The position numbers and the translations under genes were made by a program. Positions 6,294 through 58,992 of a stretch of 64,000 nt of DNA are shown piece by piece. The stretch comes from Candidatus Methanohalarchaeum thermophilum. GTDB lineage: Archaea > Halobacteriota > Methanonatronarchaeia > Methanonatronarchaeales > Methanonatronarchaeaceae. Each line of letters opens with the position of its first letter. The first letter of the stretch is position 1. The notes under the pieces were generated by a model. It was not told where the DNA came from. It did not search any database and saw only the letters and a program-made list of their open reading frames with translations. The stretch spans positions 930,001-994,000 of the forward strand of contig MSDW01000001.1 in NCBI GenBank assembly GCA_001914405.1, read 5' to 3'.

Positions 6294-6416
6294 TTTTATC
6301 TTAGTGGTCGAGATGACCTCTCTTCTTCTCAAATTTCTGATTTTAAGTAGAAATATCAATCAACTGTACCAATTAAATAATTTTAATACCGATTAAAATT
6401 AAGCCATCAGTTTATC

Positions 6417-6829
6417 TATTTGACTGAAAAGACACCTTCCTAAATCTCTGATTAGGTAGGGGTAGTTCACTTGGCTTGTCTAACTCAACAAAAAAACCGA
6501 TTCCCCGTTTTTTGAGGATTGGCTTAACTCTCAGATCCCTACATCGAATGGGATACAAGATAAGATCGAAACCATTTTTGGGGAAGAGTCTTGGTTGCTG
6601 GTGTTGAGGTTACCGGGGAGAACATAAGCGGAACCGATATGAGTTAATATTTGACACTTTCTTCGTGTCCTAATACAGAGCTTTTACCATAAAGCAAATG
6701 GTTACCAGATATTGATCGTGTGTATAAGAGAAGCCGGTGATGGAAAAATCAAACTTCTCTGGATAAAGGGTACATCGGGAAAAACCTTTCTTTTGGAAAA
6801 AATGTGAGTAAGGTTAGAGGTGATCTCAC
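6417..6829 (+). mobile_element. Family B non-coding element, copy B2
   Basis: About 413 bp, preceded by TTTATC at 6411-6416. The left hairpin is nearly identical to solo S1, including its TAGTTCAC end. The body matches B1 and B3 in order: CAGATCCCTACATCGAAT, GAGGTTACCGGGGAGAAC, CATAAGCGGA, a GTGTCCTAAT block, ATGGAAAAATCAAAC and TGGATAAAGG. It ends near GAGGTGATCTCAC. It is the most diverged copy of family B and contains no conserved reading frame. Confidence 0.6.
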
Positions 6830-6883: not shown

Positions 6884-7297
6884 GTGACCTCCTCACCTAC
6901 CTAACCGTTGGTTAGGAAGGTGCTTCCATCCATTTACAAGACCAGTATCCAGGGTTTGGTGCCTTGTTACCGGATGGTCTAACAGAGGCAGACACGGTCT
7001 GCCAGGATATTGCAGGCCTGCAAGGACTTAAATACTGGTTTCCAGGACAGGCACCCATGTCCGTCACTACTATGTGCCTTGGTCCTGGGCTCGGCCACAG
7101 AGCCCCGTTCCCAACCCCACCACGTATCTATTGCGATAGAGCCCTGCACTCAAGTGCTTGCCCACTTAAACTTGGCTATTGGGCTAGGAACCTCTCAACA
7201 AAAAACCCCATTTGCCACCCAAATACAAATACCCTGTGGTAATTCATCCCCCTACCTAAAATCAGAGATTTGAGGAGGGGATTTCTCACCAAACAAA
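6884..7297 (-). mobile_element. Family C non-coding element, copy C1
   Basis: A 414-bp GC-rich element on the minus strand. Read 5'-3' it begins after TTTAAC with TTTGTTTGGTGAGAAATCCC and a left hairpin, and ends GGTGAGGAGGTCAC. The interior contains a GGCAGACCGTGTCTGCC hairpin, CTGG-AAA-CCAG, GCACTTGAGTGC and a GGGCTC...GAGCCC stem. These recur in the copies at 39847 and 55729. Short reading frames cross it, but frame is not kept between copies, so I treat it as non-coding and probably a structured RNA. Confidence 0.65.
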
Positions 7298-7459
7298 GTT
7301 AAATGGAAAAATTTTTATAGAATTTTGGTCACTTTTAGATTTAATTTTTTTGTGCTAGATTGGTTCCTATATATACGCTAAAGTAACTTAACTAAGTAAA
7401 TTTTAATTAATTTGAATTGAATCTAGAGTTGTTAAGAGGTAAGTTAAAGGAGGTTTAGG

Positions 7460-8051: not shown

Positions 8052-9409
8052 ATGCTATATGTTAGGGAAATGAAGAAGTCATTGAGACAGAACCTACGAG
8101 GACTAACTAAACAAGAATATGAGATATTGAAGAAGATGAGTCACAAATCCAAGGATCTATACAACGAAACACTCTACGAAGTAAGACAATATTTCTTCAA
8201 CAACGGAGAATATCTCAGTTATTACAATGCCTATAAGAGACTAAAAGGAGAAAGCGAAAACTACGAAGTCCTAACTTCTCAAATGGCTCAACAAACAATG
8301 AAGCACGTAGACAAAGTGTTTAAGTCATTCTTTAACTTAATAAAGAAAAAAAGAGAAGGTAAATACGATGCTGAAGCAAGTCCACCTAACTACCTAGAAA
8401 AAGACGGACACTTTTCACTAATATTTCCTAAGTCAAAGTTTCCAAGTTAAAGAAGACCACATAAGAATAGGTGTCCCAAGAAGTTTCAGAGAAAAATATG
8501 GGTACACCAAAAAAGAAATCCAGATAGATTTCACTTACGAGAAACTAAAACAAAGCCACATCGACATCAAACAACTACACATAATTCCAAGAGCAAAAGC
8601 ACAATACTTCGAATACAGAATCATATATGAAGAGGAAAAGGAACCAATTGATATAACGGAAGGTACTTGGTTAAGTATCGACTTGAATCTTGATAACCTC
8701 GTCGCTTGTGTTGGCCATCTTGGACGCTCATTCATATTGGATGGGCGATTACTTATAATCGTATAACAGATGGTTTAATAAAGAGGTAGCGAGATTACAG
8801 AGTATTAAAGACAAACAAGGTATTAAAGAAACCACAAAGAGAATAAATAAGCTATTCCGAGATCGAGAAAACTATATACACGATTATTTAAATAAAGCAA
8901 TCAAGGTAATTGTTGAATACTGTAAAGAAGAAAGAATCGAGAAAGTGTTCTGTGGCGATGGAAAGGGTTGGAGACAAGGAATCAATTTAGGTGATAGCAA
9001 CAACGAGAAATTTGTTCAAATATCTTTCGATAAGTTCAAGCAAAAACTCAAGCATAAACTAGAGTTCTATGATATAGAGTTCAAGTTAGTTGATGAATCC
9101 TACACCAGTAAGTGCAGTTTCTTTGATAGCGAGTCTATAGAACATCACGAAGAGTACGTTGGTTCAAGGGTGGAAAGAGGTCTATTTAAAACAAGTGATG
9201 GAGTTTTAATAAATGCTGATGTAAATGGAGCGTTAAATATCGCTAAGAAAGGATTAAAAGAAATAGATGAGGGTAAGCCTGAAACTTTGGGAGTAGGGTG
9301 TAGTGGTGGTGTGGACACGCCAAGGAGAATAAGGAAACCCTTTGGGTTAGGATGCGGCTCAGATATAAGTGAGAGCCTAATTCAAATTTCTTCTGAATTC
9401 CCTTCCTAA
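8052..9409 (+). pseudogene. tnpB: TnpB (OrfB) nuclease, two frameshifts
   Basis: Three pieces in different frames make one TnpB-like protein. Residues from [18 protein letters not shown] run to about 8450, where one extra base shifts the frame before [15 protein letters not shown]. The RuvC-I Asp lies in [13 protein letters not shown] second frameshift near 8750 precedes [14 protein letters not shown]. The 3' part holds [12 protein letters not shown] and the Ruv[18 protein letters not shown] motif. It belongs to the clade without a complete CxxC zinc ribbon. The parent would have been about 440 residues. It is not expected to make active protein. Confidence 0.85.
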
Positions 9410-13790: not shown

Positions 13791-15264
13791 CCATGTGTTT
13801 GACTGAGATGACATTTTCCTAAGTTTTTGATTTGGGTAGTGTGATGAATCAGTCTTAGAAAAAACCTTTAGATATTATAATAAATGTTGGATGTGGTAAG
13901 GTATAGTTGGATGAAAAAGTTACTAAGACAGAACTTTTGAGAGTTAGATAGGCAAGAGTACGAGATATTGAAAAAAGATGAGTCATAAATCTGAAGGCCT
14001 CTGCAATGAAACTTTCTACGAGAAGGAGACAATATTTCTTTGATAACGGTGGATACTTGGACTATTACAATGCCTACAAACGCTTAAAAGGTGAAAGTGA
14101 GAACTACGGGGGCTTGTCTTCATAAATGGCTTAACAAACAATGAAGCATGTGGATAAAGCTTTTAAATTTTTTTTTAAGTTAATAGAGAAGAAAGGAGAA
14201 GAGAGAATAGATATGATGGTGAAGCTAGTTCACCTAGTTACTTGGATAAAGATGGGTATCTTTCATTAATATTTCCAAACCAGAGCTTCTAAGTCAAGTA
14301 AGACTACATTCGAGTTGGTGTTCCGAAAAGTTTCGGAGAAAAATGTGGGTATGATAAAAAGGAAATTCAAATTGAGTTTTTTTATGAAAAGCTTAAACAG
14401 AGCCGCATAGACATTGAGCAGTTACATATTATTCCGAGAGTAAAAGCACAGTATTTTTTGAGTATAGGGTTGTTTATGAGGAGGAGAAGGAACCAGTTGA
14501 GACAAAGGAGGGTGCTTGGTTAGGTATTGATTTGGGATTAGATAGCTTATATAGCCTGTGTTGGCTATCTTGGGCGCTTATTTATTTTATATGGGGGATT
14601 ATTTAAATTGTATAACAGTTGGTGGAACAAAGAGGTAGCTAAGTTAGGTTACAGTCAATAAAAGATAGGCAAGGATTTGATGGAAATACAGAGAGAATAA
14701 ATAAACTATTTAGAGATCGAGATAACTTTTTGCACGATTACTTAAGTAAATCAACTAAGGCAATTGTTGAGTACTGTGAGGAGAATAGAATCGGGAAAGT
14801 GTTTTGTGGTAATGGGAAGGGGTTGGAAACAGGATATAAGCTTGGGGGATAAGAATAACTAGAATTTTGTTGAGATACCTTTTGATAGGTTTAAGCAAAA
14901 ACTCAAACACAAACCAAAGTATTATAGCATTGAATTCATGTTAGTTAATGAAGCATACACAAGCAAATGCAAGGCATTAGCTAACACAGAAGTAAAGAAG
15001 AAACCAAGCTATAGAGGAAAAAGAATTGAAAGAGGACTATACAAAACAAATAATGGAACATATATTAATGCTGACTTAAATGGTGCTTTGAACATGGCTA
15101 AGAAAAGTATGTCCAAAACCAATTTAAAGCTAGGAATAGGAAGTAGTGGCGGTGTGGACACACCAAGAGAATAAAGAAACCCCTTGGGTTAAAATATGGC
15201 GAAAGCATAATTCAAACTTCTCCTGAACCCCCTCCTAATCTTTAATTAGGCAGGATTAGTTCAG
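13791..15264 (+). mobile_element. IS605-group element with decayed TnpB (element 2)
   Basis: The left end follows TTTAT (13786-13790), with GACTGAGATGACATTTTCC and a hairpin ending GATGAATCAG. The right end near 15225-15264 is CCCTCCTAATCTTTAATTAGG then GGATTAGTTCAG. It has the same architecture as element 1 and is more eroded. No TnpA. Confidence 0.7.
13911..15174 (+). pseudogene. tnpB: TnpB nuclease, heavily decayed
   Basis: This is a paralogue of the element 1 TnpB, aligning along its whole length at DNA level. It starts at ATG AAA AAG TTA CTA, with stops and frameshifts throughout. Only the last part is open: residues after 14938 include NEAYTSKCKAL and INADLNGALNMAKK (RuvC-III region), ending GGVDTPRE. 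Not expected to be functional. Confidence 0.8.
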
Positions 15265-20834: not shown

Positions 20835-21382
20835 GATAAAACTAAAATTTATCTTAGTGGTTTTAGAAAGATATAGTTTTTTGAGAGGCCACATTTAGTT
20901 TAGTTTTTGGGTAGTTTTGATGTTAGTAAGGGGTATTGGGTTTATGGTAAGGTTTGCGGTGGGGTTTTCTTCTAGTTTTTGGAGTTGGGTGTGGGGTTAT
21001 TGGTTTTTGGGGGTTGGATTTTTTGTTAGCTGTTGGTGGTGGAGGGGTGTTTGTGGGAGTGCTAAGTTGAGCTTTGGTAGACATGAGATTCGCTTATTTT
21101 TGTTTTTGGGTGTGGGTTGGTGATACGTGGGGAGGGGGTGGAGCTTGTGAAAATGGCATATGAGGGGTTGGTGGCTTTTTGCGTTACTTTTATGGTAGTA
21201 TCTCTACCTTGGAGCTTGGTGGGTGTGAATGGATGGAAGCTCCGTTCTTCTGAGTCTGAGAGCATGTCATTCAATAAAACCAATGAGATACATTAAATAG
21301 TTTATCAGAAAATCCCTTCTCCTATCATAAATAGAATATGTAGCTATAGATCTAGTTCTCTTAGTTAAATTATTTCTTTTTT
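20835..21382. other. TG-rich non-coding stretch
   Basis: The plus strand is extremely rich in T and G (runs such as GTGGGGTTATTGGTTTTTGG). Short open frames are artefacts of this composition: they encode Trp/Phe/Gly-only stretches with no ribosome-binding site. No second copy of this part is in the window, but its composition resembles the family D repeat that follows. Confidence 0.4.
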
Positions 21383-21781
21383 CTATAGGCGTGTTTAGGA
21401 AGTGGTTTTTATGGATTGTTGTTAGATGTGTTTTTTTTATGTTTGCATGGTTTTTGTAGGTGGGTTGGGTGTATTTTTTGATGGTTTTGGTGGGTGTTTG
21501 TGTGTATTATGTTTATTTGTTTTTCTAATTGGGGTTGGTGTTGGTTTTGGTTTGTTTGTGGGCTTTGAGATTATAGGGGTAGGGAAATTTCTGTGTTTAG
21601 TTTATTTTTTGTAGTCTTTTGATGGATTTGTAGTAGGTGTGGTCTATATATCTAGTTTTTTTTGGCTTTATAGAGTTTAGAGTATATGATATTGTATTTG
21701 AATTGGATTGATTTGGATTGAGTTTTGTGAATGTTTTTGGTTGGGGATATTGCTAAAATGTCTTTTTTAGTTTTCAGAAAA
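21383..21781. repeat. Family D TG-rich repeat, copy D1
   Basis: About 400 bp, roughly 95% identical to 51070-51483. It starts with TCTATAGGCGTG and ends near TTCAGAAAA. The plus strand is T/G-rich. One-base indels between the copies (for example TTTTGG versus TTTTTGG) break every reading frame, so it is non-coding. No IS605-type ends are seen. Nature unknown. Confidence 0.65.
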
Positions 21782-33256: not shown

Positions 33257-33446
33257 AAGAACAATAAAATATTTTTATCTTAATCTCTTAAATAATCAAA
33301 TCTTTTCTTTATTAATTTTGATGGAAATTTTTAAAAAAGCTGTAAACCCATTTTTTCCTTAGTGAAACGATACTCCAATCCTATATAATGTAGGATCTCT
33401 GGTACTATCAAAAAGTAAGGGTAAAAGTAAACAGGTTTTTTATAAT

Positions 33447-33758
33447 CTTGGTGGTTGAGAAGACCCCTTCCTAATCAAGAGATTAGGGAGGGGATGAATC
33501 AACCTATAAGCCTTAAGTGGCTCCGTGTTTTAGGTTTTGGTGTAAGCTAGGCAGGGGTTGTGGCCGAAGCCAAAAGCCCGTGGACAGATTGAGCCTCTGG
33601 TTACCAAGCTCGCTGGCTTGGGCCAGTGAACCTCCCCAAAAAGCTTCTAGATAAGCGCCGCCCGGGACTGAGATTGGATGACGGCGGTAGGAAGTGAACC
33701 CCTTTGATTCTGGAAGCATCCTTCCAAAATCTTTGATTTTGGTAGGGGAGGAAGTCAC
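33447..33758 (+). mobile_element. Family A non-coding element, copy A1 (candidate solitary omega RNA)
   Basis: About 312 bp, GC-richer than its surroundings. Left end: TTGAGAAGACCCCTTCC, hairpin, GGGATGAATCAACC. Right end: CATCCTTCCAAAATC hairpin, then GGGGAGGAAGTCAC. The interior is nearly identical to the copies at 48765 and 56304 and shares blocks with the DNA behind the nearby TnpB (34948-35121): GAGCCTCTG, CAAGCT, CTAGATAAGCG, GAACCCC and CTGGAAGC. The crossing reading frame is not kept between copies. Bases after the end (AATCTTGGAAGCAG) would be the guide if this is a guide RNA. Confidence 0.65.
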
Positions 33759-33993
33759 AATCTTGGAAGCAGAAAATTTGTGTCTTTTAGGTCATGAAAT
33801 GTATGCTAAAAACAAAGGAGTTTAGGTAACTGAAATTGTTACTTAGTAGTAGTTGGTGTTTTAGATTGACAAAGAAGAAACTTTTAGTATCTCTTGATGA
33901 AGGTGGTTGTCGGGAAACTTGGTTGGGAGAGAGGTTTATTCACCTGCTCCGCATACATAAACGAAATACTAAGAAGGAAACCTATAGGAACAA

Positions 33994-34947
33994 ATGAAAG
34001 TAACCAAAACCATTGAATCAGGGGCTGTAAACTTAACTAAAAAGAAATAAAAAGAACTTAGAGCAGAATATAAAAACCTACAAAGATTCCTACATAATGG
34101 AGAAGATGTTGAATTACATTCAGCTAACAAACAACAAGCTAAAAGATACTATGATATAGATAAAATTAAGGAAGATAAAGAGTACCCAGTTAGTCTAAGA
34201 AAAGACCTAATTGACTTAGAAAGATGTAGTTCGGATATTTGTGATTACTTTGTGAATGTTCCTTCTGCTCAACGTCGTGGAGGAATAAATATTCCTGTGA
34301 AAACAGGTCGAGAAATAAAAGATAGTTGGGAATTGTGTGAGTCTAAACTATTTAGAAAAAAAGATAATTTTTATCTTAATCTTACCTTCAAGATAGAATC
34401 TAAGGAATTCAAAGAATACAATGGTGTCTTAGGGATTGACCTTGGACTCCGTAATCCTGTAGTAGGAGCGGTGTCGGTGGCACCGTCCAGCCAGTCCAAG
34501 ATCTTTTTTAAAGGAGAAGACATCAAAAAAACCCAAACAAAGTACTATCACCTCAGAAAAAACTCCAAAACAAACAAAGGATGGAAAAAAAGAGGATATA
34601 ACAAAGTAAATGACAAATTACACAAATTAACCACAGAGATAGCGAATTACGCAGAACAGAACAAATTAATTGTCTGTGTAGGTGATTTAGAAGATATACA
34701 GGACCAAGATAAGGGAAGGGCAATGAATCGAAAACTACATCGCTTCCCACACTACACCTTTAAACAAATATTAGAATACAAGTTAAAGGAAAGAGGAATC
34801 AAATATATCGAAGTAAGCGAAGCCTTTACTAGCCAAAGATGCTCACGATGTGGTGAGAAAGGCGATAGGTACAAGGGAAGGTTTAGGTGCTGTAGTTGTG
34901 GCTTGGAAATTGATTCTGATGTTAACGGAGCTAAGAACATAGCATAA
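33994..34947 (+). pseudogene. tnpB: TnpB nuclease with complete catalytic residues but a nonsense codon
   Basis: From ATG 33994 the frame reads MKVTKTIESGAVNLTKKK and stops at TAA 34048-34050. It then stays open to 34947 with all TnpB landmarks: Ruv[14 protein letters not shown], Ruv[15 protein letters not shown], a complete zinc ribbon ([11 protein letters not shown] and [10 protein letters not shown]) and Ruv[16 protein letters not shown] re-initiation at ATG 34252 would give 231 residues with the whole nuclease core but no N-terminal wedge domain. A single substitution separates this gene from an intact one. It lies beside family A copy A1. Confidence 0.85.
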
Positions 34948-35121
34948 CGGGTGCTAGGCAAACCTATGATAAGGTCAATGGTTAGTGCAGGGGGCTTTGT
35001 GGCAAGTCCCGTTAACTCCGTAGCTATGACCTAGCCTCTGTAAAACAAGCTAGATAAGCGGAGGAGAACCCCTTGAACTGGCTGGAAGCCCTTGGACTTT
35101 AGGCCAATGGGAGGATGTCAC
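34948..35121 (+). ncRNA. Candidate TnpB omega/guide RNA scaffold
   Basis: 174 bp directly downstream of tnpB, GC-rich and hairpin-rich, ending GGGAGGATGTCAC. It shares ordered blocks with the family A elements (GCCTCTG...CAAGCT...CTAGATAAGCG...GAACCCCTTGA...CTGGAAGC). In known TnpB systems the guide RNA comes from this position, with the guide beginning after the right end; here that would be TTTGTCTTGTTTATTG. Inferred from position and cross-family similarity. Confidence 0.5.
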
Positions 35122-39063: not shown

Positions 39064-39846
39064 AATTTAACTAAAATTATGTCTTTAAGCATATAACCTT
39101 TCTCGTTTAAGCCATTAATCTAATAAAAAACTATTTCTCTCATAAAAGTCACCTTGTTTCACTAACATTAAAAGATCCTACAGCTTCTATTTAGAAAATT
39201 CGACTTTTAATCTACATTTTGAATACTTATCTTAAATAAAAAGATATTTTTAATAAAAACTATTAAAAAAGTATTTACTAACAACTGACATTATTAAATT
39301 ATTAACTTAGTTATTCAGTTTTTGCCTTATATTCCTAATGGTAGGATTGGTTACTCCACAGACTTTGGGTATCTCTTTCTGTTTTCGCCGCTGACCTAAC
39401 CCCTGAAGAAAGCTCTTGACAAAGTAGTGTCACCAGCAAAAAATGAACTTGAAGAAAGGATAGACAAACTGGGTCTGGAGGTATTTGAAACTGGGGTGCT
39501 GCACGAAGAAATCAGAGCAAAACTCGAGTAAGTTCACCAAAAACCTAACAAAAACACACTTAAATGTAAGCATCTAAGCTCACACGAGAAATGATTCAGC
39601 TATATACACCTTTTCACCTATAAACCCCAAACAAAAGCACCTTGAAATGATCTACTGCCTCTCTCTCTTTTTATGTTTTTTGGATAAAACTAACAAAGAT
39701 CTCAACACCATTGCGGTGATGTGTGTATTACATATGACACCGCGGTGTAGAACATGTGAGACAGAACTTTAAATGATATTATCTGATAGTCACACTTTTT
39801 GATGAAAGTAAAGATAAAAAAAATCTTTAATACTTTTATTTTTAAC
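39064..39846. other. Intergenic region with gene scraps
   Basis: No intact gene. On the minus strand 39307-39400 encodes RRKQKEIPKVCGVTNPTIRN, which matches the C-terminal DNA-recognition helix pair of TFB proteins. On the plus strand 39420-39530 a frame reads SPAKNELEERIDKLGLEVFE with no start, of unknown origin. Palindromic bases near 39715-39760 (ACACCGCGGTG) were also seen. Confidence 0.45.
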
Positions 39847-40259
39847 TTTGTTTGGTGAGAAATCCCTTTCCTCAAATCTCTGATTTAGGTAGGGGGATGA
39901 ATTACCACAGGGTATTTGTATTTGGGTGGCCAATGGGGTTTTTTGAGAGGTTCTTAGTCCAATAGTCGAGTTTGGGTGGGCAAGCACTTGAGTGCAGGGC
40001 TCTATCGCGATAGATAGGTGGTGGGGTTGGGAACGGGGCTTTGTGTGACCGAGCCCAGGACCAAGGCACATAGTAGTGATGGACATGGCCATAAGTACTG
40101 GAAACCAGTATTTAAGTCCTTGTGGGCCTGTAATATCCTGGCAGACCGTGTCTGTCTCTGTTAGACCATTCGGTAACAAGGCACCAAATCTTGGATACTG
40201 GTCTTGTAAATGGATGGAAGCACCATCCTAATCAAGGATTAGGTAGGTGAGGAGGTCAC
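39847..40259 (+). mobile_element. Family C non-coding element, copy C2
   Basis: 413 bp after TTTAAC (39841-39846). Left end: GGTGAGAAATCCCTTTCC with hairpin, then GGGGGATGAATTAC. Right end: GGAAGCACCATCCTAATC, hairpin, GGTGAGGAGGTCAC. Hairpins shared with C1 and C3: GCACTTGAGTGC, TACTGG-AAA-CCAGTA and GGCAGAC-CGT-GTCTGTC (with a G-U in place of a G-C found in the other copies). Frames crossing it shift relative to C1, so it is non-coding. Confidence 0.65.
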
Positions 40260-48705: not shown

Positions 48706-48764
48706 ACTGAAATCCTCCTTTCCCCTAAAGAAAGAGAATTTCTTGTAAGAAGTTCAAGGTTTAT

Positions 48765-49074
48765 CTTGGTGGTTGAGAAGACCCCTTACTTAATCTCTTG
48801 ATTAGGGAGGGGATGAATCAACCTATAAGGCTTAAGTGGCTCCGTGTTTTAGGTTTTGGTGTAAGCTAGGCAGGGGTTGTGGCCGAAGCCAAAAGCCCGT
48901 GGACAGATTGAGCCTCTGGTTACCAAGCTCGCTGGCTGAATCGGGAACCTCCCCAAAAAGCTTCTAGATAAGTCCGCCCGGGACTGAGATTGGATGACGG
49001 CGGTAGGAAGTGAACCCCTTTGACTCTGGAAGCATCCTTCCAAAATCTTTGATTTTGGTAGGGGAGGAAGTCAC
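48765..49074 (+). mobile_element. Family A non-coding element, copy A2 (candidate solitary omega RNA)
   Basis: 310 bp after GGTTTATC. Nearly identical to A1 and A3: TTGAGAAGACCCCTTAC left end, GGCTCCGTGTTTTAGG, AAGCCCGTGGACAGATTGAG, CTAGATAAG then a CCGCCCGGG...GACGGCGG stem, GTGAACCCCTTTGAC and right end GGGGAGGAAGTCAC. Its difference from A1 (AATCGGGAACC versus GGGCCAGTGAACC) includes an indel, so the crossing frame is not preserved. Possible guide: GACTAACCTAATCTC. Confidence 0.65.
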
Positions 49075-50987: not shown

Positions 50988-51069
50988 AAATAACCACCAA
51001 CCATTCTATCATAAATCTTACACGAACATAACATTTAGCTTTTCTTAAAAAACATGAGAATCCAGTAAT

Positions 51070-51483
51070 CTATAGGCGTGGTTAGGAAGTGGTTTTTATG
51101 GATTGTTGTTAGATGTGTTTTTTTTATGTTTGCATGGTTTTTGTAGGTGGGTTGGGTGTATTTTTTGATGGTTTTGGTGGGTGTTTGTGTGTATTATGTT
51201 TATTTGTTTTTCTAATTGGGGTTGGTGTTGGTTTTTGGTTTGTTTGTGGGCTTTGAGATTATAGGGGTAGGGAAATTTCTGTGTTTAGTTTATTTTTTGT
51301 AGTCTTTTGATGGATTTGTAGTAGGTGTGGTCTATATATCTAGTTTTTTTTTGGCTTAATAGAGTTTAAAGTGAATAATATTGTATTTGAATTGGATTGA
51401 GTTTTGTAAATAGTTGTGGATGAGGATGTTGCTAAGATGTCTTTTAGGATATGGTTAAAATGTCTTTTTTTACCTTCAGAAAA
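51070..51483. repeat. Family D TG-rich repeat, copy D2
   Basis: About 410 bp matching 21383-21781 at roughly 95% identity up to a point near 51370, then less well with a small insertion. TCTATAGGCGTG start, TTCAGAAAA end. It lies between nfo and the prepilin peptidase gene. No coding frame is kept. Confidence 0.65.
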
Positions 51484-55015: not shown

Positions 55016-55070
55016 AAACCTGCTTATTTATTTTATTTAACTTTGATTTCTTTAAGAATAACTGGTTTAT

Positions 55071-55527
55071 CTTAAATGTTGAGAAGACCCCTTCCAAAAT
55101 CTTTGATTTTGGTAGGGGATGAATCAACTAGGAAGGGTTTAAGTGTTTTTGAGACTAATTAAGAGTAACTGGCAGTTGGTTGGGAGTCTGCCTCATCAAA
55201 AAGCAATCCCGTTGCCTACACGGAGCGTGTCCGTGGACTGACTTGGAAACGAGTCAAGTAACGAGTTGAAAAAAAATAGGTAAGCCCGAAACTTCGGGAG
55301 TAGGGTCTAGTGGTTGTGTGGAGCAACCAGAGTGAATAAGGGAGCCATTGTGTAGCTAATATATGGGCTTTGTGCCCTAATCCAATTCTTCACTCGGAGC
55401 AATAGTTCCCTGTTGACGGTGTGAATGAGACAAGTACCGTGGAAAAGCAAACTCCTCTTTGGATAAGGCTCACAGGGAAGCCCCTTCCTCACCGAACGAA
55501 TGTGAGGTAAGGTAGGGGTCACTTCAC
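55071..55527 (+). mobile_element. Family B non-coding element, copy B3
   Basis: About 457 bp after TTTATC. Left end: TGTTGAGAAGACCCCTTCC, hairpin, GGGATGAATCAACT. Interior hairpins: ACGGAGCGTGTCCGT, GACTTGGAAACGAGTC and CCCGAAACTTCGGG. Right-end hairpin: CCTTCCTCACCGAACGAATG then TGAGGTAAGG, followed by TAGGGGTCACTTCAC. Block order matches B1 and B2. Strongly GC-enriched compared with the surrounding DNA. First of three non-coding elements in 1.55 kb. Confidence 0.65.
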
Positions 55528-55728: not shown

Positions 55729-56142
55729 TTATTTGGTCTTAATCTCCTTCCTTTTTTTGATAGGATGGGAGGGGGAATCATTACAAGATATTTGTATTTG
55801 GGGAGCTTCAATAGGGGGGTTTTTGTTGGGAGGTTCTTAGCGTATAAGCCAAGTTTGAGTGGGCAAGCACTTGAGTGCAGGGCTCTATCGCAATAGATAT
55901 GTGGTGGGGTTGGGAACGGGGCTCTGTGACCGAGCCTAGGACCAAGGTACATGATGGTGATGGACATGGGTGCCTGTCCTGGAAACCAGTATTTAAGTCC
56001 TTGTGGGACCTGCAAGATCCTGGCAGACCGTGTCTGCCTTTGCTAGATCATTCGGTAACAAGGCACCAAATCTTGGATACTGGTCCTGTGAATGGATGGA
56101 AGCACCTTCCTAAATCTTTGATTAGGTAGTTGAGGAGGTCAC
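55729..56142 (+). mobile_element. Family C non-coding element, copy C3
   Basis: 414 bp after TTTAAC, with the same hairpins as C1 and C2: GCACTTGAGTGC, GGCTC...GAGCC, CTGG-AAA-CCAG and GGCAGAC-CGT-GTCTGCC. The left-end hairpin is degenerate (CCTTCCTTTTTTTGATAGG). The right end is GGAAGCACCTTCC, hairpin, TGAGGAGGTCAC. Confidence 0.65.
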
Positions 56143-56303
56143 ATGCGTGTCTTCCTCTTTATGTCAATAATTAATTACCTCTTTAATGAGTTAGGTGTGT
56201 TCTTGCCGTACTAGTTAGAAAAGTTATTTAAAGCTGGTTTAGTTTTTTGGGTGTTATTTGCTTTTCTGTCTGCCCATTTTCGAAATTTCTTATATTGGTT
56301 TAT

Positions 56304-56619
56304 CTTGGTGGTTGAGAAGACCCCTTACTTAATCTCTTGATTAGGGAGGGGATGAATCAACCTATAAGGCTTAAGTGGCTCCGTGTTTTAGGTTTTGGTG
56401 TGAGCTAGGCAGGGGTTGTGGCCGAAGGCTAAAGCCCGTGGACAGATTGAGAGTTCTGGTTACCAAGCTCGCTGGATGAATCGGGAACCTCCCCATAGAA
56501 AGCTTCCTAGATAAGGGCCGCCCGGGACTGAGATTGGATGACGGCGGTAGGAAGTGAACCCCTTTGACTCTGGAAGCATCCTTCCAAAATCCCTTGATTT
56601 TGGTAGGGGAGGAAGTCAC
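56304..56619 (+). mobile_element. Family A non-coding element, copy A3 (candidate solitary omega RNA)
   Basis: 316 bp after GGTTTATC; nearly identical to A2, with small indels (CCATAGAAAGCTTCC versus CCAAAAAGCTTC; CCCTTGATTTTGG in the right hairpin). The right end GGGGAGGAAGTCAC is followed by ATCTTTCTTGTCGG as possible guide. Indels that break the crossing frame while hairpins persist support an RNA rather than a protein. Confidence 0.65.
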
Positions 56620-58605: not shown

Positions 58606-58992
58606 CTTAAACCCACCTACTATCTACTTTTTATTACTTATTTCTTTATTCAATATTAGAAAAATCTCTTTATTCAATATTAAAAAAGAGCAATATTTAT
58701 ACATAGTAGAGTAAGGGAGAGAACTTCAGGATTGGCCATGTGGATCACTTAACTCTTTAAGGTCCGAAGGTGATTTTAGTTCCTGAGTATTTTTTGGTAC
58801 TTTTTTCTTAAGTTTTTAACTTATTTGGTGAGAAATCCCCTTCCTAAATCTCTGATTAGGTAGGGGTAGTTCACGTTGATTATGAGGGGATTGTATTATA
58901 GTGGAAATTATTAGTGAAAATAAAAAATAAGTATTAAATGGTTGTTTAGAGCATCTTAAATTGGTTTTTAATTTAATTTGAGGTTTTAGCTA
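58606..58992. other. Intergenic region with solo hairpin S5
   Basis: No gene. Includes a TTCAATATTAGAAAAATCTC tandem-like repeat (58651-58688), the solo hairpin at 58821-58874 and the DNA ligase promoter. Confidence 0.45.
58821..58874 (+). repeat. Solo IS605-type end hairpin S5
   Basis: After TTTAAC: TTATTTGGTGAGAAATCCCC, hairpin TTCCTAAATCTCTGATTAGG, then TAGGGGTAGTTCAC. The left part matches family C and the right part matches the TnpB elements. Confidence 0.6.

Follow-up and report, generated by a model that had tools for sequence, protein, structure and literature searches.

Guide RNAs encoded apart from their nuclease gene are described in the OMEGA literature as stand-alone omega-RNA loci, which belong to IscB, not TnpB. 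The TnpB omega-RNA (reRNA), as known from ISDra2 and from archaeal IS200/IS605 elements, is normally encoded in cis with tnpB; its scaffold lies 3' of the gene or overlaps its end, and stops at the right end of the element (PMC8612924, PMC10097598, PMC12558985). The solved structure of the ISDra2 omega-RNA contains a pseudoknot, in which an upstream segment pairs with the bases that immediately precede the guide (PMC10097598). Autonomous IS200/IS605 elements are thought to be retained through TnpB, which cuts the empty site under the direction of a flank-derived guide (PMC11870625).

Here we describe family A, a group of IS200/IS605-type elements of Candidatus Methanohalarchaeum thermophilum in which such a scaffold also stops at the right end and is, in contrast, encoded alone. 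The elements were examined in a window of 64,000 nucleotides (positions 930,001 to 994,000 of contig MSDW01000001.1, here C1) and across the genome. Their closest precedent is provided by the palindrome-associated transposable elements (PATEs) of Haloquadratum walsbyi, especially HqIRS71, which may be the same kind of element: these too are transposase-free and of the IS605 type, with subterminal palindromes and a target oligonucleotide, and their description predates knowledge of omega-RNA and proposes no guide-RNA function (PMC3119063). Unlike the Haloquadratum PATEs, family A shows no clear remains of TnpB coding sequence, carries an elaborated scaffold with a domain termed P4, numbers 43 copies and matches a TnpB omega-RNA model. 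Both proteins have likewise been lost from the IStron variants without any ORF (BcISt1), which are of the IS605/IS607 type; unlike family A, these kept a group I intron, came from five closely related strains and were not assigned a solitary guide function in that survey (PMC4227781). Searches of the open-access literature found no direct precedent for solitary or non-autonomous TnpB guide elements. Our main reading, to which we give a probability of about 0.6, is that family A consists of guide-only selfish elements that act as parasites on autonomous relatives, whose transposase and nuclease they use.

Three copies lie in the window, with outer coordinates that include a 5-base left target:

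33442..33758, + strand, family A copy 1: target-like ATAAT, then the element at 33447-33758
48760..49074, + strand, family A copy 2: target TTTAT at 48760-48764, element at 48765-49074
56299..56619, + strand, family A copy 3: target TTTAT at 56299-56303, element at 56304-56619

These are the three copies of the original prediction, and the element starts it gave (33447, 48765 and 56304, directly after the target) are exact; genome-wide, however, the family has 43 members, not three. A search of the whole genome (2,141,311 bases) with copy 2 as the query recovered 40 copies at 71-100% identity to it, and a covariance model raised the count to 43, at least one of which is truncated. Lengths range from 309 to 339 bp (about 320 bp), and the three window copies have a G+C fraction of 0.50; the family average is approximately 0.48, compared with 0.33 in the flanks. 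The window copies contain no ORF of 100 aa or more and interrupt no obvious gene. Rfam models run over the window matched tRNAs only, and plasmid records gave no match.

When the copies were aligned with their flanks, both borders proved constant: the left one follows a TTTAT-like target in nearly all copies, and the right one lies at GGAAGTCAC, exact at GTCAC. Sequence outside both borders was unrelated between copies, which are dispersed. The subterminal hairpins at the left and right are related to those of IS605 elements of the same genome, and no TnpA or TnpB gene lies inside the elements, so that the predicted IS605 right end and lack of a nuclease gene both held. One copy is inserted in a TnpB gene, and five uninterrupted paralogues of this gene, serving as the empty site, continue through the joint after CTTAT; at this one empty site there was no target duplication, and a one-base indel lay a few bases off. 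The insertion footprints are of the IS200/IS605 type. Based on the borders, the lack of TnpA and TnpB and the empty site without target duplication, family A comprises non-autonomous IS200/IS605 elements and belongs by membership to the PATEs, having kept its ends and lost the nuclease gene.

The interior of these elements was compared with the DNA downstream of a TnpB gene in the window:

33994..34947, + strand, TnpB pseudogene: TAA at codon 19, C-terminal TNB domain present
34983..35121, + strand, omega-RNA region and right end of this TnpB element: GTGGC at 34999-35003 can pair with GTCAC at 35117-35121

Alignment bore out the claim that ordered blocks are common to family A and the DNA 3' of this TnpB (TAG-GCAGGGG..TTGTGGC..AAG-CCCGT..AGCCTCTG..AAGCTAGATAA..GCGG-AGGA..GAACCCCTT..CTGGAAGC), with one correction, in that a block of the TnpB copy reads TAGCCTCTG rather than GAGCCTCTG as had been given. 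The alignment score was 35.5, against a shuffled mean of 18.8, and one in 1,000 dinucleotide shuffles scored as high; with the right end removed the score was 31.0, reached by three of 1,000 shuffles. A covariance model trained on 38 family A copies and restricted to their interior, with the left end and the right-end hairpin left out (R1), found the 43 copies in the whole genome together with five weaker sites, all five directly 3' of a TnpB C-terminal domain. Conversely, a model built solely from 13 TnpB 3' regions, also without the right-end hairpin (R2), found 15 TnpB-type sites, 30 family A copies (14 of them at E below 0.01, the best at E = 9e-11) and a single further site, a weak one. 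Run over 295 genomes of the phylum, R2 had matches in 63, and the TnpB motif DxNAAxNI lay upstream of the match in 23 of the 30 top loci, nearly all at the same fixed offset, the behaviour of a model of TnpB omega-RNA. The family A interior is thus a scaffold homologous to TnpB omega-RNA in sequence and structure, and the shared structure on which the original prediction depended was recovered reciprocally by two independent models. The usual encoding together with tnpB is missing from family A, which sets it apart, and the scaffold stops at the right border of the element, which puts the flank in the guide position.

Within copy 1, the parts of the element are as follows:

33447..33504, + strand, left end: subterminal hairpin GGTTGAGAAGACC(hairpin)GGATGAATCAACC, resembling the left end of the autonomous element at C1:451-453 kb
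33550..33580, + strand, hairpin H1 of the omega-RNA scaffold: GGCAGGGG..GAAG..AGCCC
33560..33564, + strand, 5' side of the proposed pseudoknot: GTGGC
33643..33695, + strand, P4 domain: GCTTCTAGATAAGCGCC..GGCGGTAGGAAGT, with a covarying outer helix
33706..33758, + strand, right end: CTGGAAGC, hairpin, GGAAGTCAC
33754-33758, + strand, 3' side of the proposed pseudoknot: the last five bases, after which the guide would begin at 33759

The five bases that lead up to the guide (GUCAC) are complementary to GUGGC in the loop of H1, a predicted pairing that resembles the ISDra2 pseudoknot (PMC10097598) and is derived here from complementarity. Five pairs can form in most family A copies, four in the majority of the remainder and three in the others, some being weakened; standard pairs make up 93% of the cells at the five pseudoknot positions of the alignment. 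The partners are GUGGC/GUCAC in family A, the window TnpB and TnpB locus L089, GUGAC/GUCAC in loci L039, L043 and L048, GUGAAC/GUUCAC in L041, L052, L060, L083, L085, L093 and L116, and GUGACC/GGUCAC in L094. Both partners thus change together between TnpB clades, in support of a conserved, though predicted, pseudoknot. Over the whole proposed structure of family A, 89.6% of pairs are standard, and its covariation score of 0.167 compares with 0.145 for shuffled alignments and at most 0.098 for slid structures. Compensatory change within the family was modest, with 102 pair-keeping and 121 pair-breaking changes on the tree; unsupervised column covariation mostly reflected subfamily structure, and RNAalifold on the whole element mixed the left and right hairpins. 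In single copies, matches to a TATA-like box before H1 were no better than in shuffled sequence, and no conserved promoter was found by this measure. The P4 motif appeared in none of 84,980 species genomes and in no viral contigs under a stricter pattern, and under a looser pattern only in archaeon SCG-AAA382B04 among those species genomes.

On the tree of family A copies, the interior (columns 121-317) accumulated 3.0 changes per site, compared with 3.25 at the left end and 4.2 in the right hairpin. Uniform rates would leave 8.3 invariant sites in the interior, against 33 observed (dispersion p = 2e-24), and invariant interior motifs lie far from both ends, though the copies differ by up to about 30%. 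Conserved blocks remote from the ends include AAGCCCGTGGAC, GATAA and ACTGAGAT. The interior is under constraint, as slow to change as the ends and far less even than neutral sequence. For comparison, the genome holds much shorter elements of the same type, of which one in the window was taken as a control:

6409..6472, + strand, minimal PATE: left end fused to right end, omega-RNA absent

Such PATEs measure about 60 bp and occur dispersed through the genome in at least 30 near-full-length copies, and since they lack the RNA, the omega-RNA seems unnecessary for mobility. Other minimal PATEs of about this size in the window are at 494-554 and 58815-58881.

Guide-only elements were not confined to family A. 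Two + strand copies of a second family, family B, lie in the window:

39846..40259, + strand, family B: H1 with GTGACC, right end GGTCAC
55775..56142, + strand, family B, second window copy: matches query positions 54-414, left end unmatched

This family is non-coding and IS605-type, measures about 414 bp and has at least 15 long copies genome-wide; a further copy is on the minus strand at 6884-7298 (C1:936884-937298). One of the 15 TnpB-type sites found by R2 is itself a solitary element that retains no more of the TnpB gene than the last codons (about 40; locus L205), which suggests a plausible tnpB-deletion intermediate and hints at how guide-only elements originate. L205 (C1:913777-915476) consists of a left end, a CTTTATATG box, approximately the last 40 TnpB codons, an omega-RNA and a GTTCAC right end. 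Beyond this genome, a sister-genus genome (G001) has two solitary elements with the same layout and different flanks, and two more distant archaea have at least four solitary copies beside TnpB-linked ones (G044) and about ten beside three TnpB-linked ones (G146); in these two, TnpB was judged absent from the lack of an upstream DxNAAxNI motif and from inspection of the alignments. The layout of left end, omega-RNA and right end occurs in several families and in at least three other archaeal genomes.

Other repeats were recorded in the window as well. An element of 462 bp (family C, 55066-55527) is non-coding, with a TTTAT left border and a GGTCACTTCAC right end; it has many copies genome-wide (71-99% identical) and relatives in G001. 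Direct repeats of about 380 bp, 81-98% identical, are present at 21382-21766 and 51069-51445.

Because of its in-frame TAA at codon 19, the window TnpB at 33994-34947 is not intact (the longest ORF from a later start is 231 aa), and any partner of family A must be another TnpB of the genome. The TnpB domain has about 89 matches in the genome, and several TnpA genes are intact. At C1:451-453 kb lies a complete TnpA+TnpB element whose left end follows the family A plan; its target is ATTAT, its right end is GTCAC, and CTAGATAAGCG is common to it and family A. In a 400 aa TnpB at C1:680 kb, the translation, read by eye, has the RuvC residues aspartate, glutamate and aspartate in place at their expected motifs. 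No TnpB of this genome has an omega-RNA that matches family A over its full length including P4; the nearest matches are partial. Among the remaining TnpBs, the one at C1:842 kb (L054) is closely related to that at C1:680 kb (L044) and may have lost the RuvC glutamate, since it reads IILGDL where L044 reads IILEDL; two related broken TnpB genes lie at 8052-9409 and 14027-14971, the first followed by a GTAGTTCAC right end.

We propose that family A elements would be mobilised in trans by a TnpA from elsewhere, and that transcription through the right end would yield an omega-RNA with the initial bases of the right flank as its guide. Loaded with this RNA, a TnpB from another site in the genome would cleave the TTTAT-plus-flank sequence, which is present only where the element is missing, and repair from an occupied copy would then restore the element, as the role of TnpB in retention suggests. 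The most likely use of the family A guide would thus be in trans, by a TnpB, to cut empty sites.

In a different reading, a TnpB element gave rise to family A by losing internal sequence, and the copies still move in trans, with the omega-RNA part as a functionless passenger. Internal deletions of IS605 elements that give PATEs are known (PMC3119063), the right end overlaps the omega-RNA so that part of the RNA is kept in any case, and the modest covariation within family A fits as well. Such a passenger does not readily account for invariant interior motifs remote from both ends in copies that differ so widely, and PATEs of about 60 bp that dispense with the interior are widespread in the same genome, while the end, omega-RNA and end layout is repeated in several families and genomes; we regard this reading as unlikely, though it keeps some weight. 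Solitary RNAs might instead tie up TnpB with other guides and thereby reduce cutting by autonomous elements, as the high copy number of family A relative to TnpB genes and the disruption of a TnpB gene by one copy could suggest. Occupying TnpB, however, does not need an RNA that ends exactly at the flank, and family A has kept the terminal GUCAC, the exact right border and the left target motif, as retention needs, which makes this role improbable.

IS605 transposition acts on single-strand hairpins, and the interior could in principle take part in transposition or in the structure of the DNA, through additional TnpA binding or a single-strand fold, and have no function as RNA. Minimal PATEs manage without the interior, which is moreover homologous to a region that elsewhere overlaps TnpB coding sequence at a fixed offset to the TnpB C-terminus; we rejected a purely DNA-structural function on these grounds and consider it very improbable. 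The domesticated regulatory role that had been suggested for the copies, resembling TnpB-derived RNA-guided repressors with selected guides, would agree with the lack of an obvious interrupted gene at the three window copies. It is abandoned here and seems scarcely credible, as the forty-odd copies are dispersed mobile insertions, one of them inside a TnpB gene, and their guides are unrelated because the flanks are unrelated, with no conserved guide among them.

Guide-only elements that use TnpA and TnpB in trans, the reading that we prefer for family A, may represent a wider phenomenon. With about even odds, in our judgment, guide-only transposons would form a recurrent selfish class that consists of ends and omega-RNA only, rivals in number the intact nuclease-bearing elements in some archaea, and borrows TnpA to move and TnpB to home into its own empty sites. 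If it is true that a guide RNA alone suffices for retention, the nuclease would be a shared good exploited by smaller parasites, and this would help account for the many IS605-derived miniature elements in archaeal genomes. Family A also shows a route by which a guide RNA can part from its nuclease gene, and a step of this kind has been considered in relation to how separate CRISPR guide RNAs arose.
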